DNA of 64,000 bases from Sulfolobus islandicus Y.N.15.51 (GCF_000022485.1 NC_012623.1:1576501-1640500), one strand, 5' to 3'. Shown: positions 7,770-53,872, numbered from the stretch's first letter. Notes: generated from the sequence alone by a model not told the origin. A program made the numbers and translations.

Positions 7770-8216
7770 TTAGAAACTTATTTTACACTTTCTAATAGTT
7801 CTACCGACAATAAACTTTCCATAGGGTAGCTCAAGCACTGCACCGTATTTCCTTATCTCATTGCTCCACTTTTCTAATTCCTCGTAAACGTTAATTTCAT
7901 CGTATGTAACACAAAATGCTATAGATACTCCCATTAAAACAGTTCCTAGAGTTAGATTATTTTTGAATTCCTTCTTTGTCATTATAACGGTATCCAGATA
8001 AATATTTGTATCTTTAACGAATCTCAATCTAGCATCACTAAAATTCAATTCCTTTGCTTCATCCTTTACAATAATTAATACATCCAAATCCGAGTCCTTC
8101 TTATATTTACCTATAACTCTACTTCCAAAGAATACTATCGCAAGTACTCCGTTTCTTCTTAACAAAAAGGTGGCTTTTCTAAATAACTCCATGTTTTCTA
8201 AGATAATTCTCTGCAA
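7770..8216 (-). CDS. MNT-type nucleotidyltransferase (module 2)
   Basis: The nucleotidyltransferase core is IVFFGSRVIGKYKKDSDLDV (about residues 27-46), with the G-S motif and the D-x-D pair. Unlike the MNT proteins of modules 1 and 3 it has an additional C-terminal 60 residues. The start overlaps the upstream HEPN gene by 38 nt. It is the expected antitoxin of this pair. Confidence 0.85.
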   Translation of the reverse strand: MQRIILENMELFRKATFLLRRNGVLAIVFFGSRVIGKYKKDSDLDVLIIVKDEAKELNFSDARLRFVKDTNIYLDTVIMTKKEFKNNLTLGTVLMGVSIAFCVTYDEINVYEELEKWSNEIRKYGAVLELPYGKFIVGRTIRKCKISF

Positions 8217-8607
8217 TGCTGATCACCTCATCAGAATAGTTTATTCCTTGCCTACACATTTCCTCAGTCACAAATTCCTCTGGAGTAGTTATATTATTTC
8301 CGTTAAAAAATGGATATCTAGACATGTTCCATGCACCAGAAAGGTAATCTAATGCATTCAAAACTACATCTAATTCGTTTCCAAGATCTTGTAAATTATT
8401 CGAAGCATCCGCTATGATGTCGTGTTCTTTCTTATATATTAATTTTACTTCTAACATAGCTTTCACGCTTTTTTCGACAGATTGTTGAGAGTAAAAGAAA
8501 CATTCAAGGTAGTCTTTAAGTTGTAAGGCCCTTTTAGCCCTAATATTATCTTTTTTTGCTATATTTAAGAAGGCTTTAGCATATTCTCTAAACTTAGGGG
8601 GAATCAC
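8179..8607 (-). CDS. HEPN domain protein (module 2)
   Basis: This 142-residue helical protein has the pattern DYLECFFYSQQSVEKSVKAM, then EHDIIADASNNL, and SGAWNMSRYPFFNG, as in HEPN toxins. It overlaps the downstream MNT gene by 38 nt and the upstream 76-codon frame by 4 nt (ATGA), which suggests a three-gene transcript. Likely role: toxin-like RNase controlled by the MNT partner. Confidence 0.82.
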   Translation of the reverse strand: MIPPKFREYAKAFLNIAKKDNIRAKRALQLKDYLECFFYSQQSVEKSVKAMLEVKLIYKKEHDIIADASNNLQDLGNELDVVLNALDYLSGAWNMSRYPFFNGNNITTPEEFVTEEMCRQGINYSDEVISIAENYLRKHGVI

Positions 8608-29247: not shown

Positions 29248-29608
29248 AGGAAAAATATATCTGCCTTTTCGAAAACATAGAGTTTTAATGGGTAAGAGGG
29301 CGAAAGCTCCTTTTTATGACGGTAAGCCCCAAAATATTTTTATAAAAATACTTCTAACTATCTAATATTAAATTTGTAGGAAATAATAAGAATTCAACAA
29401 ATTAGAAAAATTAAAGTGAGAAAGCCGTATTACCACATGTGAGTCCAACAGTGATAACTTCAAGTTTTCCTCACCAAATAAGATAAGGTTTTTATTATTA
29501 TTAACAAATACTCAACCCGTGAAAGAGCCTTATAAGAGTTTATTGGGAAAGCTCGGTGAACTCAACCAACCCTCACGGAAGGGACTTTCATCCCCTTAAC
29601 CTACTTTG
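29248..29608. other. Gene-free stretch with transposase start fragments
   Basis: An ATG at about 29289 opens MGKRAKAPFYDGKPQNIFIK and stops after 25 codons; a GTG near 29519 opens VKEPYKSLLGKLGELNQPSR and stops after about 26. Both look like the first codons of truncated transposase genes. The rest is AT-rich without further features. Confidence 0.35.
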
Positions 29609-29836
29609 CTGAAGTTTTATGAAGCACACAAGGTTAAGCTTCACAGTAGGAAATTGCACACTGCTTTGGCTAGAAAGTTGGCAAGGGTTGTTTGGAGTGT
29701 TTGGTATAATAATAAGCCTTATGAGCCTAAATAAGTAAGCCCTCCCCGAATCGCCACGTGGGTTGAAAGGACCCACGAGGCAATGTTAGCTAATACTATG
29801 CTTGAAGTTTGACCGAAAGGTTTATTACTGAACGCC
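29609..29836 (+). pseudogene. 3' remnant of an ISC1229-like IS110 element
   Basis: The last codons of an IS110-type transposase (LKFYEAHKVKL, ALARKLARVVWSVWYNNKPY) are followed by the element's 3' noncoding end: the hairpin CGCCACGTGGG/CCCACG and the terminal sequence complementary to GGCGTTCAGTAATAAA. It is in inverted orientation to the larger copy at 30706-31910, so the two flank the third HEPN-MNT module. Confidence 0.8.
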
Positions 29837-29845
29837 CCCGTTAAG

Positions 29846-30205
29846 TTAAAAAGATAGTCCGATCTCTTTTGCTAAGTCCTTTAGCCTCTTAGCTTCTTTT
29901 TTCATTTGTTTAACGAAAAGAGATGCAGAGTCATTCCATTCCTCGGGAGTAAAAGCAAAGAATTCTACGCGTGCTTTCAGGTACTTTCCGAGTTTTTCAA
30001 GTCTATCAATATACCTTAAGCCTTTAAAGTCTCGCGATATTATGACTAAATCTATGTCACTTGTCTCTAAGTAATCTCCTCTGGCCCTAGAACCCACTAC
30101 GTATATATCTTCAATTTTAATTTCATTAGTTATATCATTAATAAATTCTATTGCAACTTTTACCAATTCAACTTGACTTTTTAATGCAGATTTCGCTTTA
30201 CCCAT
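29846..30205 (-). CDS. MNT-type nucleotidyltransferase (module 3)
   Basis: The 119-residue protein has IYVVGSRARGDYLETSDIDL at residues 33-52, with the G-S and D-x-D motifs of minimal nucleotidyltransferases. It overlaps the HEPN gene upstream by 25 nt. Expected antitoxin of the pair. Confidence 0.87.
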   Translation of the reverse strand: MGKAKSALKSQVELVKVAIEFINDITNEIKIEDIYVVGSRARGDYLETSDIDLVIISRDFKGLRYIDRLEKLGKYLKARVEFFAFTPEEWNDSASLFVKQMKKEAKRLKDLAKEIGLSF

Positions 30206-30570
30206 TCTATCACCTTTTCCGCTTTTTTTACTAACTCCTCAGCATCTTCCTTACTATATAACGAATATGGTATAGTATTTGCAGCATCAGGATATCTAGA
30301 GATAGTATAATGTAAAGTAAGTTTGATTATTTCACTTCTTATCTCCTCTACGGATAATCCTATCTCTTCCTTTATTATCTCTAACAACTCATTTAAGTCA
30401 TGAGTCCTCTCGATCTTTCCTCCCGCTATTAAGAGTGCTTTTAGAGCTTTCTCAGCAGCTTGTTCGGCCCAAAAGGCTGAAGCATAATAATGACCAGTTG
30501 TAATAGTATCTTTAGCAGTTGCTAAATCTTCTAAGGCTTGTCTCAACCATTTTTCTGCTTCTTCTCTCAT
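30181..30570 (-). CDS. HEPN domain protein (module 3)
   Basis: This 129-residue protein has canonical HEPN features: EKWLRQALEDLATAKDTI, YYASAFWAEQAAEKALKALL, KIERTHDLNELLEII and TLHYTISRYPDAANTI. It is the toxin-like partner of the downstream MNT gene. The module sits between inverted ISC1229-like copies, which could have helped move it. Confidence 0.87.
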   Translation of the reverse strand: MREEAEKWLRQALEDLATAKDTITTGHYYASAFWAEQAAEKALKALLIAGGKIERTHDLNELLEIIKEEIGLSVEEIRSEIIKLTLHYTISRYPDAANTIPYSLYSKEDAEELVKKAEKVIEWVKRNLH

Positions 30571-30705
30571 CAGTTTAGATTAGCATCTAGGCCTTTTAAT
30601 CATAACTATCCTAAAAAGGAGTGTAAAGGGAGATGGAATCTCATGTGAAAATTGCGACCTTTTTGTGTATAACGATTTAAATGAAATGTCCTTACAAAAA
30701 TTGGA

Positions 30706-31910
30706 GGCGTTCAGTAATAAACCTTTCGGTCAAACTTCAAGCATAGTGTCAACTAACATTGCCACGTGGGTCCTTTCAACCCACGTGGAGATTCGGGGGA
30801 GGGCTTACTTATTTAGGCTCATAAGGCCTATTATTATACCAAACACTCCAAACAACCCTTGCCAACTTCCTAGCCAAAGCAACATACAACTTCCTACCTT
30901 TCAACCTATCCTTATGAGACTCGTAAAACTTCAGCAAGGTTGGATTCCTAGAATAATTCCTCACTGCCAAAAAGTAGAACAAGCTACGCAAGTACTTATT
31001 ACCCCTCTTGGAAATCCCCCTACTTATTACAGCTCTTCCACTCCTCTCAACTACGGGATCTAAACCACAATAAGCCACAAAGGACTCTGGTTTAGGAAAA
31101 CGCTTAACATCACCAACAATACCAATAATAATACCAGCTGCAAGCCTCCCAATTCCCGGGATTGTTAATAAAACGTGATTATCCGGTACTTGTTCCTCGA
31201 TCATCCTCCTAACTTCTTTCAATTTCTCTTGAATCTCAAGAAGGTTTTTAGCCAAGATTTTGATCTCCTCAAGCACTATTGGCGTATATTCAAGTTGGTA
31301 GAGCTCTTCTCGTGTAAAATCTCCTTTTGCAAGTCTTTCCAACCTATCCTTGTTTACCTTATCGTTATCACTTACTAGGAATAGTGCCCTCTTAAGCCTA
31401 TTCTTGTACTTTACCTCTATGTCCTTTAGGAAGAGGTAGAGTGTTGTCATTTCCTTTAAGGGGTTGTAATCGTACTCCTTAGCCTTATCAACCATGTTTT
31501 CTAATTTTTCTGCATCGTAAAAATCTGTTTTCTTTTCCCTAAACTCCTTTTCCCTTGCGTTTGGACTAACTTTTATCCCTTTCTCCTTGAAGTATTGTGA
31601 AGGCCTTATTGCGTATACTCCAGTAGGCTCTAGGACTATTGTGCAAGGTTTCATTTTAAGTATCTCTTCATAACCCTCCTTTTTGTTCTCGTATTTTCTC
31701 ACCCTCCCCCTAATGATCTTTTGATACATCTATTCCTATTACCCCTACCTCTTTATCACACCTATATGCGTGAATTTTGTCACAATGTTCAGTCCGATGG
31801 TAGGGGTTTGTCACGCCCTCTTCCGAAGACTTTACTTCAATTTCTAAGTCGACCATGTTTCCCCAGCCGAGGAGAGTATTATTCTCCTCGGCTAATAGAA
31901 CCTATATAGG
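30706..31910 (-). mobile_element. ISC1229-like IS110-family insertion sequence (decayed copy)
   Basis: Ends were set by comparing this copy with the one at 45530-47110: homology starts at GGCGTTCAGTAATAAA and ends at ACCTATATAGG, and flanks differ outside. About 1.2 kb, which fits ISC1229 by length (name is inference). Both noncoding ends carry hairpins: CCACGTGGG...CCCACGTGG at the transposase 3' side and CCGAGGAG...CTCCTCGG at the 5' side. IS110 elements move via an RNA-guided DEDD recombinase and leave no target duplication. Confidence 0.8.
30809..31856 (-). pseudogene. IS110-family transposase, frameshifted
   Basis: From ATG 31856 the frame reads MVDLEIEVKSSEEGVTNPYH to IGIDVSKDH and then a stop, because bases equivalent to LITSR are lost relative to the copy at 47057. 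The rest (30809 to about 31729) is open: VLEPTGVYAIRPSQ, KTDFYDAEKL (DEDD acidic residues), and the C-terminal Tnp20 domain with LLTIPGIGRLAAGIIIGIVG and SGRAVISRGISKRGNKYL. Five further residues are missing near SPNAREKEF. This copy is inactive without the first catalytic Asp. Confidence 0.82.
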
Positions 31911-32284
31911 CAACTAAGGCAGTAAATAGGAGCATTCGCACCATGATGTACTCTATAGCCCTAGTCTTATGGGAGAGAAGGTTAATCCCAGATAGCATTT
32001 ATTGGAAAATCCTTGCATTATAATATTCTTATAAAGGGCTCCATTAATATTTATATTTAATTTTATGATATATTATAAAAACTAATGTGTATATAATGAA
32101 ACTTCAAAATTTATCTCCACATAATTTTGAAAATTATTTAACTCTAGAATTTTCCCTAAAGTGCTACCCAGAATTTGTAGCTTAATGACGGCATTATCGA
32201 CACACTCAAGTAGGGGGAGAGAAATATGAGATAAGAGTTAAGGATGTTTTGTCATTATCTTAGATAGCCCTATAAAGGAACATA
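31911..32284. other. AT-rich gene-free stretch with an IS1-like scrap
   Basis: Bases 31961-31986 (CTAGTCTTATGGGAGAGAAG followed by GTTAAT) match, in opposite orientation, the IS1-like remnant at 52.2 kb and can be read SPSLMGEKVN. Otherwise there are only AT-rich runs with many stops. Confidence 0.45.
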
Positions 32285-33517
32285 TTAAGGATATATCTTA
32301 TCGATCAGCCTACTGCAGGGTGAAGATATCATAACAGCAATAACGTCAATGTTACATCTTACTAGCCTTCCGTTTTGGAATTCGCACCATTGTAAATTAT
32401 TATTAGGATCGAAAAATACTAATCTAGTTAACTTAGCCGGACAGTCTATAATTATTGAATAATCGTGACCTGAGTACTTTACTCCCCCATGATCCAAAAG
32501 TATGCTAAAACCTAGTATTACATACCGCATTCTTAGATTAGGCGTAAATCTAGAAACCTTTACGCCCATCTCTACTAATTGACTTATATGATACCTTCCA
32601 TTTAACGGAGTTTTAGGCGTAGATACCTTTGGTAATTTGTTAATTAAATTTAAAACAATGCTATCACTTAAATAAGGATTACCTATTGGGATGCTTTGAC
32701 TTAAAATTTTACTATTTTTTCTATCATATATCTCAATTTCTGCAGAATTCTCGTACCATATACTACTCCGTAATAATAGGGGAGTAAGCTATCTCTATAT
32801 TTCTGAACTTGAAAAATAGCTGTCTTATCATAGTATGATTTAAATTCAAGAACTAAAAAAGGATATTCGCAATCTAGTAATTGTTCATTTTCGCAACTCG
32901 TAGTGTATATCGCGAGATCTGGTTTGACTATACCTAACCCCTGAAGATCTATCGAACCACATTCTGAAATTGCACAAAAACCGTTTTTATTTAAAATTCT
33001 TACGAATTCTGCTCTTAAAAACCTCTCATAAGTTGGTGAGGCAAATATCTTATTTATAACAGTGCTTCTAGGAATAGTAAAATTAAGAGTTACTGAGAGC
33101 TCGTGGAAGAAAACTTGAGAAGAAGTAATTAAATAGGTCAGCATAAGATTGAAAGTCGTTGCTAAATACTTCATTATTACCGTGGTATATTATAAGATAA
33201 ATATACTTAGTCAAATCAACACATATGGTATAATAAGGATTTATAATGCTAGAATATTTAAATGCTTGTTTACATATTCCATAATGAGAAATCCCTCCCC
33301 GTTTTAGCTCATTTTTAAATTCGAATAAAAAGAGAGGACTGCAATACCCATTATTACATATATAAGTAACTAAGTCAGATCTTTGATTTTGATTCCCTAC
33401 TAGCATTTCTGGAATGTTTACATTATCTATGTTCTTCGCTCTAAAGTATTCTACTAGTGCTGCATACCATTGATCCCTTATTTCTCCCTCACCTATAAAA
33501 TGTAAATATCTAACCAT
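32285..33517 (-). pseudogene. Tandem PD-(D/E)XK nuclease-like protein, two frameshifts
   Basis: Three consecutive frames make sense as one protein of about 410 residues. Part 1 starts at ATG 33517 (MVRYLHFIGEGEIRDQWYAA) and has RSDLVTYICNNGYCSPLFLF-EFK. Part 2 (from about 33095) has KPDLAIYTTSCENEQ...YPFLVLEFKSYY. Part 3 (from about 32760 to 32285) continues AEIEIYDRKNSKILSQSIPI. Each nuclease-like domain has a D...E-x-K core followed by Q-x-x-K/FKY...PYY, so the two domains look duplicated. Shifts lie near 33100 and 32755. Divergent from the kinase. No family name recognised. Confidence 0.55.
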
Positions 33518-33553
33518 AAAAATTTTTAAGAACTTTTTTCCTAATAAATATTT
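33518..33553. promoter_or_regulatory. Very short divergent promoter, nuclease-like gene / kinase
   Basis: Only 36 AT-rich bases separate the likely starts (33517 minus, 33554 plus). AAATTTTTAAGAACTTTTTT can serve as TATA element for the kinase at leaderless distance, and the complementary strand offers AATATTTATTAGG for the other gene. The two promoters must overlap, so the genes are probably co-regulated or compete. Confidence 0.5.
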
Positions 33554-35029
33554 ATGCTGATTTATGCTTATATTATAGGTAAAGTACAATTTTCAAATCC
33601 TCCATTTTTAACTCCTTATGTCCAGATAACAACAGATCATTTTAATGTTAATAATGAGCCTTTAGAATGCGAATTAATGCTAATAGATGAAAAATTAAAT
33701 GTAGAAATAACTTACGCTACTTGTTTGACAATTCGAGAAACAGATTCAGTAAAGGTTTTCATGAATAATCTTGATCCTAAAATTACTTCAAGACTTTTAT
33801 CTCAAACTACATTTATTGTAATAATAAAGATATGGAGTCTATTGTTGAATTTGGATTTGTCAGATATAAGGCAGTCATTGGTATATTTCAATAACAACAC
33901 ATTAATATACAATTTCAATAACATCTATTATATATTGAAATATTCTAATTTTATTAATCCAATAGATTTACAAACTGCTATTAAATTATTGAATTATCTT
34001 ATGACAAAAAGTTCTTATGAACTTTTTAGAGATACTGAATTTTCAAATATAATTCAAACGTTATTTATCAGCCAAACAAGCCCTTCAACCACTCAAGGTA
34101 ATGTTTGGGTAGGTAGAACAATATATGGTTATAAATTACTTGAGAAGATAGGTGAGGGTGGGAACTCTACGGTGTATAAGGTTGAATATAAGAACTCACT
34201 TTACGCAATGAAAATTTATAAGATTTTACCACCTTCTCCAACTCAAAATACTAGTGTGCAAGCGATCAGACTATATAAAGATATATACGACGAGTCATCA
34301 AATCTAATAGCACTTTCTAATAAGTCTAAAAATCTAGTAAAGATCTTTGCAATTTACGTGGACTTGAATAGAATAAAAATGATATATAATGGCGATTTAA
34401 CAATATATCTTGACTACCCGCCAGCAATAGTAATGGAATACATGGAAGGAGGTAATATATGGCAAATAGTTAAGGATAAGTTAATTTACTCAACTCGTTG
34501 GGAGAAGGTTGTCGCTAAAATAGGCCTTGAGATATCAAACGCCTTAGAGGTGATTCATGACGAGGGATACGTCCACTTGGACGTAAAGCCTAGCAACTTC
34601 CTTCTTTCTAAGAAGGTTAATGTAAATACTGCAGAAGAACTTTTGAATTTACTTAACACTGGCCAATTAGTCGTAAAGTTAGGGGATTTAGGTTCCGCTA
34701 GAAAGATTGGAGAGAACATACTACAATTAACACCCGCATACGCACCGCCAGAGCAATTTGATGTAATAAGTAAGGCAGATCCTAGTATGGACGTGTTCTC
34801 TCTTGGCGCATCATTATATGCGATATATAGGGGTATAAAGGGCTTTAATCCGACTAATGTGCAAACTAGTGTAGATATTAGAAAGGATTATGAAAAATAT
34901 TATCAAGAACTCTTAAATAGGGCTAGCTCGCCATTTGAGAAGTTCTTGTTAAAAATGACTTCCCCAAATCCGAAAGATAGACCTACAATAAATGATGTGA
35001 AAAAAGAATTACAAAAATTTTTAACTTAA
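33554..35029 (+). CDS. Ser/Thr protein kinase with unknown N-terminal domain
   Basis: Residues about 190-490 form a complete eukaryotic-type kinase: glycine loop KIGEGGNSTVYKV, ATP Lys in YAMKIYK, catalytic loop YVHLDVKPSNFLL (HLD in place of HRD), metal-binding DLG in KLGDLGSARKIG, PPE in AYAPPEQFD and the helix-F segment SMDVFSLGASLYAI. Essential Lys and both Asp are present, so it should be active. Residues 1-185 start MLIYAYIIGKVQFSNPPFL and have no recognised domain; a beta-barrel like that of HerA helicases is a weak guess. There is no membrane segment. It is intact while both neighbours are broken. Confidence 0.85.
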   Translation: MLIYAYIIGKVQFSNPPFLTPYVQITTDHFNVNNEPLECELMLIDEKLNVEITYATCLTIRETDSVKVFMNNLDPKITSRLLSQTTFIVIIKIWSLLLNLDLSDIRQSLVYFNNNTLIYNFNNIYYILKYSNFINPIDLQTAIKLLNYLMTKSSYELFRDTEFSNIIQTLFISQTSPSTTQGNVWVGRTIYGYKLLEKIGEGGNSTVYKVEYKNSLYAMKIYKILPPSPTQNTSVQAIRLYKDIYDESSNLIALSNKSKNLVKIFAIYVDLNRIKMIYNGDLTIYLDYPPAIVMEYMEGGNIWQIVKDKLIYSTRWEKVVAKIGLEISNALEVIHDEGYVHLDVKPSNFLLSKKVNVNTAEELLNLLNTGQLVVKLGDLGSARKIGENILQLTPAYAPPEQFDVISKADPSMDVFSLGASLYAIYRGIKGFNPTNVQTSVDIRKDYEKYYQELLNRASSPFEKFLLKMTSPNPKDRPTINDVKKELQKFLT

Positions 35030-35130
35030 TGAACTTTTTGTATTGATTAAAATTTATGAGTGGACAAAAATTAGCTTAACTAGTCGTATAATATTTTAGA
35101 CTGAGAATTTCAATGAAAATTAGCGTAAAC

Positions 35131-35353
35131 CTAGGCAGATTTAACAAAGATGTTACGGATGTAATTCTTAAATGTCTCAACCTCTTTACTACCAAGTTTT
35201 AAATTAGAGAACGTCTCGTTAGTGTTTCTGATCTTAGGATGGGGGCTTAGTAAGCCTACTATAATGGACTTAGGGTAACGTAGCCGACTTACCGTCAAAG
35301 TAAACTATATCTCTAGGTAAGTATGTTGATAAAGGGTATTCGGCGACATGCAT
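35131..35353 (-). pseudogene. Decayed gene fragment
   Basis: From ATG 35353 the minus strand reads MHVAEYPLSTYLPRDIVYFD up to GKSATLP; after a shift near 35270 it continues PKSIIVGLLSPHPKIRNTNE to KNYIRNIFVKSA and a stop at 35131. The continuity of protein-like sequence suggests a relic of a gene on the strand opposite to the kinase. Family not recognised. Confidence 0.35.
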
Positions 35354-35590
35354 ATCTTACCCTTCTAACATTAACTATTAAGATTTTGTTTCCTTTCTTT
35401 TTCTTAAAAAATGATAGCCAACTTTAACTCAACGAAAGATTAGATTTTGAGTTATGACTATGAGAAATTTCAACTAATCTACAAGATATGTAATTATCTA
35501 AATTTTTGTATAATTTTGAAGAGAACTACAAGGCACACTTCCCTTGAAACTTTAAATATTAGATCTTATAAAAGTTTTTATTAGATAATT
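35354..35590. promoter_or_regulatory. Leader region and TATA box of the large island gene
   Basis: TTATAAAAGTTTTTA at about 35566-35580 lies roughly 25 nt before ATG 35591, the spacing of a leaderless Sulfolobus mRNA. This is the main reason for taking 35591 as the gene start. The rest is AT-rich and gene-free. Confidence 0.5.
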
Positions 35591-38192
35591 ATGCGAGAAG
35601 GTGAAGAAAGTAAGAAGAAGAAATTTTATGAAGACGAGGATTATATCGGACGCGCAAGTGAAGATAGTGATGAACCTCCAAAGAACAAAATATCAATTAA
35701 AGAGATATAATCAGCAAAGTTAAAGGTAATTTACCTCCTCGACAACCTATTAATAGTTCCATACTTCCTTCTAGGCAAAATATAGCTAATAATGTTATGC
35801 ATGGCAGTTCAAAAACTGGAAATATAAAATTCGATTTGGATGACTATCCTTATCTTTATTATATTGAAATGTTAGGTAAAGAAGAAAAATATAGTGATTA
35901 TAAGAGAGAAATATTAGATGGCATAATTAAAGAAAGATCTTATCTCGCGTGGGGAGATGAGTGCCTATCAGCTCTTTTAGCTAACATAGAAAATGTTATT
36001 GATAAGTTACGTCAATTAGATCCTTACTTCTCTGATCACTATTTTATTCATCTTGAAGCGGATACTCCACGAGGAATTAAGGAGGTCTATCCTAAAGTAA
36101 CAAATAATATTCAAAAAGTAAAACAAGATTTCGAGAGTATAAGGGAATGTATCTACAATTTTATTTTAAATTATTTACGCAAGACAGATAGAATGGGTCT
36201 ATTTATTTTTATGAATAAAAATGACTTCTGGGAATTCACAAATTTTTTGATGGATGATAAAGATAGAAAAGAAGTCTTAACAATACGATCCCTAGTAGAT
36301 ATTTATGAAGTTGATAGGATGCAAGATTTTAAAAAACTGTATAATAACTATTATCTACAAATAATTAACGGATTAAAAGATGAGTTAAAGGACGAAGAAT
36401 GGTTTAAAATACTTTGTGAACTTAGACGTTTTGTTAAAGTTGGCAAAATAATAAACATTCTTTCTAATTTATATAACATACCGCCACAAGCTTTATCCAG
36501 TTTATTCAGTTCAGAAATATGTAACGGTATTAAACACAAATTTGATTTTTCTGATCTTAAAACTTTCTTTTTACTTAATTCATTATCTGTATGTAATAAT
36601 TACACTGAATGTAAAAATATTTTAGATAAAATATATGGTGATATACAGCAAATACTAAGTTCTTTAGGTTTGTTAAACTCGCAACAGTTAAATGTCAAGC
36701 TTATGCCGGTATTGAATTATATTTATTTGGATTACAACAAACCTAATCTTATAATAACATTAGATACTTTAAACTTTCCCGTAACTGCACACGTTTTGAA
36801 CGAACTACTTCTGGATAATACTATTACTTATTTAGATCCAAAGTCAGTCGCAATTATAACTTTACCGCCTAAAATTTTTGGATTAAAATCTGAGGGATCT
36901 TCCAATGAGGAATATGTACAATTGTTCACTAATGACGATGAGCTAGAGTTTCACCCGATTATCAACAGGTTAATGGAAAAATTTAGGGAAAAATTTAAAA
37001 TTGATATAAAAACAAGGCATTATAATTATACCATAATAGATAAATACGGAAAACCCATAAGTTTGGCAGAGCTTCAACAAAAAATGAGAGAGAGGAAAAC
37101 ATCGGTTGTAAATAGGTCTAAGGGAGTTTTAAATCAACCTGCAAATATAAATACCATATCTATAAATCGGAATGGAGTTCCTAAATACATTCAACTAGAC
37201 ACTAACTTTCTTGGAGGATTTAAAAAAATGGCGTCTCTAGTATATGCATCCGATCGTGGAACGACGATTATTGTTTATGATGAAAATAAACCTGGTATTG
37301 AAGATTCGTTAGCTTACTTAGCTACGGAAATTGCGTCAGTTAATGGGTATGAAACAAACCCTATTACAATTTCTAATAAAGATGATTTAAGTAGGGATTG
37401 GCGCGTGCCAAATGTTGGCATTGCTGCTGGAATTTTCGTTCTAAAAAGGATCTATGTGAAGCTAATGATAATGTAAAAAAAGCGCTACAAAATTCTCTAA
37501 ATGGTATTATGGGTTACAAATACTCAATAATTATAATGCCAAAATGTTTATACGACGAATTTAAGTTAATAATAGGAGGAAAAGCAAAAGTAATTCAAGA
37601 AGATCTATCTAGAGAAGTAATTTCTACTTTAGCATATTTGTCCTCTGGATTTCAAATTAATCTAAAAACTTATGATGCCTTAGCTAATGTAAGGGAGCCT
37701 TATGAAAACTTATTAATTGAAGCTAGATCGTGGCTAGATAATAATTATATATGTAAAGATGTTGAAGGAGAAAAGGAGTCTGATTTACATAGGAATCTTA
37801 AGGCTGTCGCTATCAAACACTTAATAGAGATAGAGAAAATTAAAGTGGATGAAATTCATGTCGAAGAATATATTGATGATTTAAAGCCAGATATACTGAC
37901 CCCTAATCTAGTAGTTGATGCTAAAACTAGTATTGGTATTGAACCCAACGATGAATTGTCTGATCTTAAAAAGTATTCAAAACTAAGTAATAGAATTTGG
38001 GCCGTAATGAAACCAATAGCTGTACTACTTGACTTAGATAGGATAATAGGTAGAATAAACGAAGCTGCAAAACAAGGTATTGAGATGAAGGTTATGATCC
38101 CCGTGAAAGACGATAAATATGGAAGCAAATTAATAAGTCTAGAAAACTTCATTAAAGAAGGGAGAAACTATTATAGTCAGCAAACTACCTGA
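35591..38192 (+). pseudogene. Large island protein with C-terminal PD-(D/E)XK domain, two frameshifts
   Basis: Three frames combine to one protein of about 865 residues. Part 1 (35591-35710) is charged: MREGEESKKKKFYEDEDYIG. Part 2 (open from 35701; first ATG 35797) runs to 37476 and is a long helical region, then IPKSVAIITLPPKIF-like beta strands. Part 3 (from about 37430 to 38192; GIF then RSKKDLCEANDNVKKALQNS) ends in a nuclease-like core VEEYIDDLKPDILTPNLVVD-AKTS, the PD...D-x-K pattern. Both junctions are -1 shifts next to A runs. The ORF start at 37398 is only a TTG and unsupported. Function unknown; the link to the kinase island is by position. Confidence 0.55.
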
Positions 38193-38226
38193 TTCTCAAC
38201 ATCTCCTCACTGGTATTCAGTCTAAA

Positions 38227-39403
38227 GCGGAGCTTCCGGTATAAAAACTTTCCTTGAAAATCGAGCATAATTCACACTACTTACGCAATGAAACCTGCTT
38301 TACTCACTAGCATCAAAGGGCTTATTATAATACAGCACAGCCCAAGTAATAACAGCCAACTTCCTTGCACATGCAACAATCAACTTCTTACCCTTTAACC
38401 TACCCTTGTGCTCCTCATAAAAACGCTTGATAACAGGATTAACCTTAATAGCAGTCAAAGCTGCCAAATAAAAAGCCCTCCTCAAAACAGCATCACCCCT
38501 CTTGGATATACCCCTTGAGACAACACTCTTACCACTAGACTCAACAACAAGACCACAATAAGCAACAAACCTCTTCTTATCACTAAAGCGCCTAACATCA
38601 CCAACCCTAGCCAAAATAATACAACCCAAGGTTTTACCAATACCGGGAATGGTGAAAATCAAACTATCCTTGGGAACAAAATCCTCAAGCTCCTTCTCAA
38701 TCTCCCTCTTCCTACCCTCAAGCCTCTCAAGCTCCTCCAAAAGAAACCTCAGCCAAGACAACACTATCCCCACCACCCCTCAAAACCTCCTCCAAATTCC
38801 TCTTTGACAAACTATCCCTATAGCCTAAAAGTACCAAATCCCTCCTCAACCTATTCTTAACCCTAGCAATACTCCTAGTAACAAAATCCCACTGGCTAGT
38901 CAACTCCCTAGCATCACTTGTTACAAACCCACTACCCATACTTACAACTATTTCTGCTAGCTTTTTAGCATCATTCTTATCACTCTTCTTACCCCTAAAA
39001 CCCTTGAACTTCTTGAGTATAAAGGGATTAATAATCCTAACATTATACTCACCCATCAAGTACTTTGCTAGGTTAACGTGGTAAACTCCAGTACTCTCAA
39101 TACCCACTTTGCAACCCTTAGGCAAGATCTTCCTTATCTCCTCAAACCCTTGCCTATCATTAGTAAACTCGTAGAGTTTACCTTGAAAATACATAATTAA
39201 TTTATCTTTTGATACATCTATTCCTGCAACTGGGTGCCTCCAATTGTACTCACCCTTATGTTTTATTCGGGCTTTTTGCCCAACTTCCGGTTCGAATTGG
39301 AGGCGGCCAAGCTCCCCATCGGGCTTTAAGCCCAAGGAGCGTCACGGCCTACACCCCAGTCAGATCTGTATTACTCAGATCTGACTAATATGTTTTATAT
39401 AAG
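38227..39403 (-). mobile_element. ISC1190-like IS110-family insertion sequence
   Basis: An IS110 element of a different subgroup from the ISC1229-like copies, about 1.18 kb. Its 5' end near 39350-39403 (CAGATCTGTATTACTCAGATCTG, then GTTTTATA) recurs as a scrap at 41325-41410, which fixes this end. The other end is estimated. It closes the kinase island on the right. The name is inferred from family and length. Confidence 0.65.
38300..39335 (-). pseudogene. IS110-family transposase, frameshifted
   Basis: The N-terminal frame (39335 to 38727) carries VAGIDVSKDKLIMYF, VGIESTGVYHVNLA and SDKNDAKKLAEIV, the DEDD acidic residues of IS110 recombinases. The C-terminal frame (up to 38300) carries the Tnp20 domain, IFTIPGIGKTLGCIILARVG and SGKSVVSRGISKRGDAVLRR. 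They join by a shift around 38740-38765 (GGDSVVL / WLRFLLEEL). The likely true start is further in than 39335, at or before the KHKGEYNWRHPVAGIDVS segment. Inactive as read. Confidence 0.82.
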
Positions 39404-39657: not shown

Positions 39658-40044
39658 TCATTTTAACTTATTTTTAGCTTTCATTATTTCCTCATCAAGA
39701 CTTAGTATTTCACTTTGTAAGATTGTGCTTATTGATAAATGTAAAAGATCCAACGTCTTAAGCTTTATTTTATTAGAAATCTTTATTGCAAAGTCGATTA
39801 CTCTATCAAAATCTACTTCTTCAATTTCGCACTTGCACTTACTAAGGGTATAATTAACCAAAGCCTCTAGCTCCTCATCGGAAATCTTCATTCTTCTAGA
39901 GTAAACTGAATATAACTCTGCCAAGACTAGTTTACTAACCACCTTCTTACCATCCTTAGGGTACATCTTTATAGCCATTTCATGATTCGGATCTTTTTCA
40001 TTGGCTAAAGCTATTGCAAGGCTAGTATCTATATAATATTTCAT
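39658..40044 (-). CDS. vapC: VapC-type PIN-domain toxin
   Basis: This 128-residue PIN domain ribonuclease has MKYYIDTSLAIALANEKD (first Asp), KLVLAELYSVYSRR (Glu) and KLKTLDLLHLSIS (Asp), the acidic triad that binds Mg2+. It overlaps vapB by 4 nt. Toxin that cleaves RNA when freed from VapB. Confidence 0.9.
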   Translation of the reverse strand: MKYYIDTSLAIALANEKDPNHEMAIKMYPKDGKKVVSKLVLAELYSVYSRRMKISDEELEALVNYTLSKCKCEIEEVDFDRVIDFAIKISNKIKLKTLDLLHLSISTILQSEILSLDEEIMKAKNKLK

Positions 40045-40283
40045 TCTCTATCACTTATGACGTCGTTAGATGTAGGTAACTCGAAAGGTAAACCTTCTTT
40101 TAACCATTTTTCGGTCAACTCTTTAACTTTCTTTTTCCTTTCTATTTCTTCTACAGCCCTATTTATGCCGTATAGTATAATTAAGTTAAATGCCTCGTTT
40201 TTAGATTTAGCCAAACCCATTTCAACCATCTGCTCGGCTATTTCATAGTACTCATCTTTTACTTTTATTGTTACTATCTTCAT
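40041..40283 (-). CDS. vapB: VapB-type antitoxin
   Basis: The 80-residue protein begins with a ribbon-helix-helix-like segment (MKIVTIKVKDEYYEIAEQMV, LAKSKNEAFNLIILYG) for DNA binding and ends with a charged, Pro-containing tail (LPFELPTSNDVI) that would wrap the toxin. It is the first gene of the pair and likely represses its own promoter. Confidence 0.85.
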   Translation of the reverse strand: MKIVTIKVKDEYYEIAEQMVEMGLAKSKNEAFNLIILYGINRAVEEIERKKKVKELTEKWLKEGLPFELPTSNDVISDRE

Positions 40284-45527: not shown

Positions 45528-45633
45528 GTGGCGTTCAGTAATAAATCTTTCGCTCAAACTTCAAGCATAGTATTAGCTAACATTGCCACGTGGGTCCTTT
45601 CAACCCACGTGGCGATTCGGGGGAGGGATTCAC

Positions 45634-47057
45634 CTATTTAGGCTCATAAGGCTTATTATTATACCAAACACTCCAAACAACCCTTGCCAACTTCCTAGCC
45701 AAAGCGACATACAACTTCTTACCCTTCAACCTATCCTTGTGTGTTTCATAAAACTTCAATAAGGTTGGGTTCCTAGAATAACTCCTCATTGCTAAAAAGT
45801 AGAACAAGCTACGCAAGTACTTATTACCCCTCTTGGAAATCCCCCTACTTACCACAGCCTTCCCGCTCCTCTCCACTACGGGATCTAAACCACAATAAGC
45901 CACAAAGGACTCTGGTTTAGGAAAACGCCTAATATCACCAACAATACCAATAATAATACCAGCTGCAAGCCCCCCAACACCCGGTATCGTTAATAGGACA
46001 TGATCTTGAGGAACTTGCCCTTCAATCATCCTCCTAACCTCCTTCAACCTCTCTTGAATCTCAAGAAGGTTTTTAGCCAAGATTTTGATCTCCTCAAGCA
46101 CTATTGGCGTATATTCAAGTTGGTAGAGCTCTTCTCGTGTAAAATCTCCTTTTGCAAGTCTTTCCAACCTATCCTTGTTTACCTTATCGTTATCACTTAC
46201 TAGGAATAGTGCCCTCTTTAACCTATTCTTGTATTTCGTCTCTATGTCCTTTACGGTAGACCCAAAATCTAATTAGTAAAAATAATTTTTATTCATTATT
46301 AGTAGTTCGTAACGATTTAATGTAATTAGTTAGATAATTATATGATAATTTTTATAAATTTCCAAGTACCATATTAGATTTTTTATATTTCCACACAATT
46401 AACTGAGGAATATTATTATAATATTAGAAAATGATAAAGATGTATATGATAGAATCTGTTTTATTTACATTGATTATTTAATACATTATTCTTAATGCTC
46501 TTGATTATGAGTATAATAAAATATATTCTTTTATTTATTAAGAAAAAATATGAGGTTTAATGTTGAATTTATATTTGTAATATGATTTTGGGTCTACCGT
46601 TTAGGAAGAGGTAGAGTGTTGTCATTTCCTTTAAGGGGTTGTAATCGTACTCCTTAGCCTTGTTAACCATGTTTTCTAATTTTTCTGCGTCGTAAAAATC
46701 TGTTTTCTTTCCCCTAAACTCCTTTTCCCTTGATAACACGTTTGGGCTGACTTGTAGTACTCTTACCCCTCTCTCCTTGAAGTATTGTGAAGGCCTTATT
46801 GCGTATACTCCGGTAGGCTCTAGGACTATTACGCAAGGTTTCATCTTGAGGATTTCCTCATAACCCTTCAAGTTGTTCTCGTATTTTCTCACCCTCCCCC
46901 TGCTAGTTATTAAATGTTCTTTTGATATATCTATTCCTATTACCCCTACCTCTTTGTCACACCTATATTCGTGAATTTTATCACAATGTTCAGTCCGACG
47001 GTAGGGGTTAGTCACGCCCGTAGCCGAAGACTTTGCTTCAGAACTCACGTCGACCAT
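45634..47057 (-). pseudogene. IS110-family transposase split by a MITE
   Basis: The N-terminal part (47057 to 46600) has VGVIGIDISKEHLITSRGRV, VLEPTGVYAIRPS and KKTDFYDAEKL with intact DEDD acidic residues, up to TLYLFL. The C-terminal part (from about 46253 down to 45634) has the Tnp20 domain with LLTIPGVGGLAAGIIIGIVG and SGKAVVSRGISKRGNKYL. Except for the inserted element the coding sequence looks intact, so the insertion is recent relative to decay of the copy at 30809. Confidence 0.88.
46254..46599. mobile_element. 346-bp MITE with 16-bp terminal inverted repeats
   Basis: The two ends are CGGTAGACCCAAAATC and its complement. The insertion is flanked by TTTA on both sides (46250-46253 and 46600-46603), while the uninterrupted copy at 31.4 kb has TTTA once, so a 4-bp target duplication is clear. 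No coding sequence. Its ends match those of the DDE element at 59454-60652, the likely source of transposase. Confidence 0.9.
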
Positions 47058-53458: not shown

Positions 53459-53872
53459 TTCAGTAATAAATATTTCGGTTGAACTTCAAGCATAGTGTCA
53501 ACTAAGGTTGCCACGTGAGTCCTTTCAACCCACGTGGTGATTAAGGGGAAGGGTTTCTTTAATTATTTGGGCTCATAAGGCTTATTATTATACCATACAC
53601 TCCATATAATCCTAGCCAACTTTCTAGCCAAAGCAGTGTGCAATTTCCTACTGTGAAGCTTAACCTTGTGGGACTTGTAGAACTTCAGCAAGGTTGGGGC
53701 CTATGGTAATTCATCTCTGCAAGAAAATAAAACAAGCTACGCAAGTATCTATTACCCCTCTTGGGAATTCCCTTACTTATCACAGCCCTACCGCTTCTTT
53801 CCACAACAGGGTCTAATCCACAATAAGCTACAAAGGACTCGGCCTTGAAAAGCGCTTAATATCACCAACAAG
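53459..53872 (-). pseudogene. 3' remnant of a diverged ISC1229-like element
   Basis: Starts with TTCAGTAATAAA, has the CCACGTG(A/G)G...CCCACGTGG hairpin and then the complement of transposase C-terminal codons (YNNKPYEPK-like, KLARIIWSVWYN). Sequence after about 53872 is unrelated. It is more diverged than the other copies and has frame breaks. Confidence 0.75.

Follow-up and report, generated by a model that had tools for sequence, protein, structure and literature searches.

Does the Ser/Thr kinase gene that lies between two insertion elements of Sulfolobus islandicus Y.N.15.51 form a single system with the two putative nuclease genes beside it, as the first-pass annotation had proposed? 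The window, that is, the whole stretch of 64,000 nucleotides analysed here, corresponds to G000:C1:1576501-1640500 of a 2.85-Mb genome. As had been stated, two IS110-like elements bracket the three genes (kinase, tandem nuclease and large protein gene), with IS110-like ORFs on both sides. In the following, G000 denotes the window genome, G119 a genome of another genus, and G066, G078, G131, G151 and G152 the other Sulfolobaceae genomes in which the nuclease family was found. The features of the locus are as follows.

30809-31729, minus strand: left IS110-like transposase ORF, 306 aa (window ORF reading)
32208-35184, no strand: block common to the window and G119 (nuclease, kinase and short flanks; 86% identity at the nucleotide level), taken as the extent of the module
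32285-33517, minus strand: tandem PD-(D/E)XK (HSDR_N-like) nuclease gene, broken, by comparison with an intact 410-aa relative (L023:7862-9094) and a 407-aa relative (L047:9739-10962)
33517-33083, about 33090-32701 and about 32740-32285, minus strand: pieces of the broken nuclease gene, with two small deletions between them
33086-33517, minus strand: nuclease core 1 (E..D..EFK..Q-x3-Y), HSDR_N_2-like in relatives (Pfam and alignment)
32760-33075, minus strand: nuclease core 2 (PTYERF/RAEF..PDL..LEFKS..Q-x3-Y), HSDR_N-like in relatives and homologous to core 1
33518-33553, no strand: 36-bp A+T-rich intergenic stretch with divergent start codons on either side; a similar short stretch occurs in G119 and G151
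33554-35029, plus strand: Hanks-type Ser/Thr kinase, intact, 491 aa (Pkinase profile)
35591-38192, plus strand: large gene, broken, of a separate PD-(D/E)XK family and outside the kinase-nuclease module (frame open over 35701-37476 and over 37395-38192)
37434-38189, plus strand: C-terminal region encoded by the large gene; contains a third PD-(D/E)XK-like core (model mean pLDDT 64)
38300-39335, minus strand: right IS110-like transposase, broken and now present as two ORFs that overlap (window ORF reading)

No CRISPR arrays were found in the window by a simple repeat scan, and Rfam gave zero matches within it. As read by eye from the translations, HEPN-MNT-like pairs and a VapBC-like pair surround the island (window 29846-30570, 7770-8607 and 39658-40283). 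A repeat of ~240 bp, whose copies are 85-90% identical, occurs at window 29600-29839, 30703-30943, 45530-45758 and 53459-53697; some of the copies extend over the ends of IS110-like elements.

For the kinase, the annotated complete gene proved to be a full 491-aa ORF with a whole Pkinase domain. The catalytic domain covers about residues 193-484 (Pkinase E=3e-32, profile positions 1-259 of 263), and the glycine loop GEGGNSTV, YAMKIYK, HLDVKPSN, GDLGSA, APPEQ, DVFSLG and the DRPT arginine were read from the sequence. The G-loop, VAIK Lys, HxD, DFG-like and APE-like motifs are all present, which places the protein among the Hanks-type kinases. The N-terminal ~188 aa were found in G000 and G119 only, among 31 Sulfolobaceae, and a scan of IMG/VR gave no relative of this part; tblastn of the kinase against phage and plasmid collections returned bacterial kinases only. 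The dN/dS value between G000 and G119 is 0.38 for the kinase and 0.28 for the catalytic domain alone. Three other kinase loci were found in G000, all in metabolic or transport gene surroundings, and no nuclease neighbour was recognised at any of them.

For the divergent gene, the reading frame from the ATG at 33517 to the stop at 32285 runs through three frames, and the nuclease alignment was built from four relatives obtained by whole-genome search. D, E-x-K and Q-x3-Y are invariant in each of the two cores (D48/E66/K68/Q82 and D199/E223/K225/Q235). The Pfam gathering cut-offs were exceeded in relatives, both for HSDR_N_2 (cut-off 25; 29.8 bits in G078 and 32.1 in G066) and for HSDR_N (cut-off 25.1; 26.6 bits in G131 and 31.4 in G066), and the G066 copy has two matching stretches for each family. 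The G119 and G151 copies, which are closest to the window, fall below these cut-offs. The two halves align to one another by profile (hhalign 95.7%, E 1e-8), and both cores are followed by a conserved C-terminal domain of ~150 aa, which is missing from the G066 copy. Since the catalytic residues are invariant twice over, relatives pass the Pfam cut-offs, and the halves match one another by profile, these results indicate that the gene encodes a tandem PD-(D/E)XK protein of HsdR-N type, and thus a predicted nuclease, in agreement with the two PD-(D/E)XK-like cores noticed earlier. In PADLOC-DB 2.0, the G078 copy matched nothing and the G119 copy reached no better than E 0.026, and neither NCBIfam nor PHROGs contained a match. 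PDB sequence searches with either nuclease alignment (tandem or large) returned nothing meaningful, and the single-sequence model of the read-through window nuclease reached a pLDDT of 31.7.

Compared with the intact 410-aa G119 copy, two nucleotides have been lost from the window gene near 33100 and a single one near 32750, and all of the catalytic residues are still encoded in the broken copy. An assembly error as the cause is disfavoured, because the two indels are independent and lie outside homopolymers and because long neighbouring genes of the window are intact. As judged from its reading frame, the nuclease is dead in the window genome. The dN/dS value between G119 and G151 is 0.18, and the branch-wise values for the three copies are 0.29 (window), 0.24 (G119) and 0.13 (G151), so that the inactivation in the window looks recent.

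A profile search found the nuclease family in 7 of the 31 Sulfolobaceae and in no genome outside the Sulfolobaceae among 398 sampled across the phylum. No nuclease relatives were found by tblastn against the phage and plasmid collections, or in the scans of IMG/VR and of a genome-contig collection. In G119, a 410-aa nuclease and a 488-aa kinase, 83% identical to the window kinase, stand head-to-head and are both intact. The block shared with the window is roughly 3 kb long, is 86% identical at the nucleotide level (87% over nuclease and kinase), and ends about 155 bp beyond the kinase. G151 has an intact nuclease (407 aa) and still carries the intergenic stretch together with about 20 codons from the start of the kinase gene, after which the sequence is unrelated; another kinase is encoded at a distance of about 7.5 kb from the nuclease. 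The retention of these codons beside an intact nuclease indicates that the pair is ancestral to the three genomes. For G078, a nuclease-family gene lies about 165 bp downstream of a different, TPR-containing kinase. The nuclease is broken in G152, and no kinase adjoins it in G131, G066, or G152. Kinase and double nuclease are thus a conserved pair without a name, disarmed in the window and intact in another genus, which bears out this part of the first-pass annotation. The patchy presence of the nuclease and the 86% identity across genera fit transfer, and the pair is best read as moving horizontally between lineages.

Directly downstream of the intact G119 nuclease, in the same orientation, are genes for an OLD/AbiEii-like ATPase (461 aa, AAA_15; PADLOC hits NsnB and AriA) and for a family-less protein of 204 aa (L023:5684-7670, minus strand). 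Remnants of both occur in G131 (L070:12832-14782), about 11-13 kb from the nuclease.

Several genomes have the nuclease without an adjoining kinase, and insertion sequences and toxin-antitoxin-like genes abound in the region, as would be expected if the two genes were chance neighbours in a defence/insertion-sequence island and worked separately. However, the arrangement and the short intergenic stretch are kept across two genera, a different kinase is adjacent in G078, and, with about 5 kinase places per genome, an immediate kinase neighbour is expected for <1% of genes (our own arithmetic). We therefore consider chance neighbourhood somewhat unlikely.

The first-pass annotation had counted the large gene as part of the same island. 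Its C-terminal core, described there as a third PD-(D/E)XK-like core, was recovered, with E...PD...D-x-K invariant in 10 relatives. The breakage claimed for this gene is borne out by at least one frameshift, at about 37.43-37.45 kb, where two profiles match in different frames; a further putative break near 35.70 kb, towards the 5' end, falls in the N-terminal part, for which the sets searched gave no convincing relatives. The model of the C-terminal part of the window protein (pLDDT 64) gave no significant Foldseek match (E at best 0.07), and a second structural comparison placed nuclease-fold chains such as YaeQ and the restriction enzymes PaqCI and EcoT38I among its top rows with Z values of only 4-5.4; the likeness of the modelled C-terminus to PD-(D/E)XK proteins is suggestive only. 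The large family occurs in 16 of the 31 Sulfolobaceae, mostly as a protein of ~510-600 aa, and its genes are usually preceded by a partner gene of ~360-390 aa (typically ~365 aa). This partner is absent from the window, and the first ~310 residues of the window protein have no convincing relatives in the sets searched (one weak match, E 8e-4). A fusion of the partner into the N-terminus of the large gene was also considered, and profile comparison showed no such fusion. The family is without a name in Pfam, NCBIfam and PHROGs, no relative was found in the IMG/VR scan or by tblastn against the phage and plasmid collections, and the scan of the genome-contig collection gave two Sulfolobaceae MAG loci.

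Only the window genome and G119 have members of all three families no more than about 10 kb apart, which is what a three-gene kinase-nuclease island with the large protein as third component would predict. In contrast, the block common to both genomes stops after the kinase. The order and orientation differ in G119, where the large gene is about 4.6 kb off, in the opposite orientation and with a 365-aa partner of its own, and other genomes hold the large family elsewhere or without the pair. The extent of the shared block and the separate distribution of the large gene led us to reject the three-gene island, which we regard as very improbable. Since the family has a distribution of its own, the partner is absent in the window, and the first ~310 residues are without convincing relatives, the large gene is a neighbour from another uncharacterised, putative nuclease cassette and not a third component.

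At three of its seven loci, the nuclease gene has cas genes or CRISPR arrays next to it. The G131 nuclease adjoins Cmr2/Cas10 and a Cmr3-like gene, the G078 locus adjoins type III-like cas genes, and the G066 nuclease sits between CRISPR arrays with Cas6 near. The nuclease might thus serve type III CRISPR systems as an accessory factor, with the kinase being incidental. Conversely, neither cas genes nor arrays were recognised next to the nuclease in the window, G119, G151, or G152, and the Pfam search of the nuclease gave no CARF or SAVED match. We hold a type III ancillary role to be quite improbable.

The explanation that we favour, tentatively and with somewhat less than even confidence, is a two-gene accessory module of the Sulfolobaceae in which the kinase would control the nuclease, probably as an antiviral function. 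The kinase, which has a module-specific N-terminal domain, is transcribed away from the nuclease with its two HsdR-N-type cores and conserved C-terminal domain. Its N-terminal part may read a signal, upon which the kinase would phosphorylate the nuclease or an adaptor. Phosphorylation would thereby control DNA cleavage by both cores, whose family and catalytic residues are apparent from the profiles and the alignment, and could switch the nuclease either on or off. The target would probably be viruses or plasmids. In the window genome, the nuclease has been inactivated and the kinase reading frame survives. In favour of this module, we count the same head-to-head order with both genes intact in another genus (G119), the second, different (TPR) kinase beside the nuclease in G078, in contrast to the metabolic or transport surroundings of the other three kinase loci of G000, and purifying selection on both proteins (dN/dS 0.18 for the nuclease and 0.38 for the kinase). 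Also in its favour are the kinase remnant beside the G151 nuclease, the patchy spread with 86% identity across genera, the nuclease loci with cas or CRISPR neighbours, and the precedent of the PD-(D/E)XK resolvase Hjc, which kinases of S. islandicus phosphorylate and thereby inhibit (PMC6555300). Against it, we count that the head-to-head pair is traceable in three genomes only (window, G119 and G151), with the kinase lost in one, that the nuclease has no adjoining kinase in G131, G066 or G152, that the phage, plasmid and IMG/VR collections searched gave no relative, and that crowded islands can bring genes together without joint function.

Some toxin-antitoxin pairs of type VII have a kinase as the antitoxin. 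The present pair could likewise be an addiction pair, in which the nuclease would be a toxin and the kinase an antitoxin silencing it by phosphorylation. It is compact, head-to-head and set amid VapBC-like and HEPN-MNT-like genes, and a dead nuclease with an intact kinase frame, as in the window, is the safe order of loss. Inhibition by phosphorylation has a precedent, since kinases of S. islandicus phosphorylate the PD-(D/E)XK resolvase Hjc, whose cleavage is inhibited in vitro (PMC6555300). However, the G151 nuclease is intact although the adjacent kinase is cut to about 20 codons, which speaks against the kinase being strictly an antitoxin, and the nuclease ORFs of G131 and G066 have no adjacent kinase. 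Another kinase could stand in, such as the one about 7.5 kb away in G151. On balance, an addiction pair seems unlikely.

Among known systems, the favoured two-gene module can be compared with PglW of type 2 BREX, which combines a NERD-REase, a pseudokinase and an active kinase in a single protein (PMC12839542). Both bring together, in a defence setting, a nuclease domain of PD-(D/E)XK fold and a Hanks-type kinase, whereas the pair described here consists of two separate genes, with two HSDR_N-type cores instead of NERD and one kinase domain. Moreover, no other BREX gene was recognised in the window, and a survey reported no type 2 BREX in archaea (PMC12839542). The PADLOC and NCBIfam tests of the kinase were made with the 83%-identical G119 copy. 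The PglW profile scored 15.3 bits against a cut-off of 990 (E 0.003). The best PADLOC match was the MAD6 kinase of the methylation-associated defence system, MADS (E 1.3e-41), covering the catalytic domain only, and the corresponding NCBIfam equivalog scored 56.8 bits against a cut-off of 460; unlike in MADS, no methyltransferase or other MADS gene was recognised beside the kinase. PADLOC also matched PD-T4-6 (E 9e-23), a single-gene Hanks-type defence kinase, whereas the kinase here is paired with a nuclease.

For the nuclease, both cores belong, by the Pfam cut-offs in relatives, to the same family as the N-terminal domain of type I restriction HsdR (HSDR_N and HSDR_N_2). They differ from HsdR in being in tandem and followed by another C-terminal domain, and no HsdR motor domain is present in the 410-aa intact protein, which has no room for it. 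No methylase or specificity gene corresponding to HsdM or HsdS was recognised among the window ORFs, in contrast to a type I restriction-modification system. Hjc, from the same archaeal family, is likewise a PD-(D/E)XK nuclease under Ser/Thr kinase control, but it has a single core and a housekeeping function in repair, and the three kinases assayed with it are general cellular kinases (PMC6555300). The kinase-nuclease pair has no name in Pfam, NCBIfam, or PADLOC, and searches of titles and abstracts, which cover the literature in part, gave no description of it. We see in the pair a variation on the familiar combination of a kinase with a PD-(D/E)XK nuclease. A bolder formulation, which we put forward as possible though doubtful, is that of a previously undescribed minimal immune module of archaea, whose tandem-core HsdR-N-type nuclease would be switched by a Ser/Thr kinase dedicated to it, and which would swap kinases across lineages, move between genera, and be a split, two-gene counterpart of the PglW fusion.

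If the kinase controls the nuclease, the Sulfolobales would own a two-gene phospho-regulated nuclease module that can be tested in laboratory strains of the S. islandicus type. The kinase-plus-nuclease theme of PglW would then gain a simple, separable archaeal version, and a physiological target would be assigned to a Hanks kinase, a class of which archaea have many members that lack a known role.

Independently of this, an unnamed family of large putative nucleases surfaces; half the Sulfolobaceae species that were searched carry it, and its 365-aa partner usually accompanies it. Several observations concern its surroundings. Between the kinase-nuclease pair and the large-nuclease cassette of G119 stands the gene for a coiled-coil protein (L023:13933-15030) that has short tandem repeats and whose C-terminal part resembles a nuclease. 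In G151, the genes next to that of an 879-aa protein distantly related to the large nuclease (L061:9853-12492) look like those for a type I specificity subunit and for a methylase of Dam type. In G146, a 424-aa protein that, by eye, looks CARF-like and has a PIN-like C-terminus (L034:10939-12213) adjoins a cassette of large nuclease and partner. Degenerate copies of the large family in G125 (L031:2327-9541) and G141 (L066) lie beside genes that, by eye, look like type III CRISPR Cas10/RAMP genes, which points to a possible link of this family to CRISPR loci.
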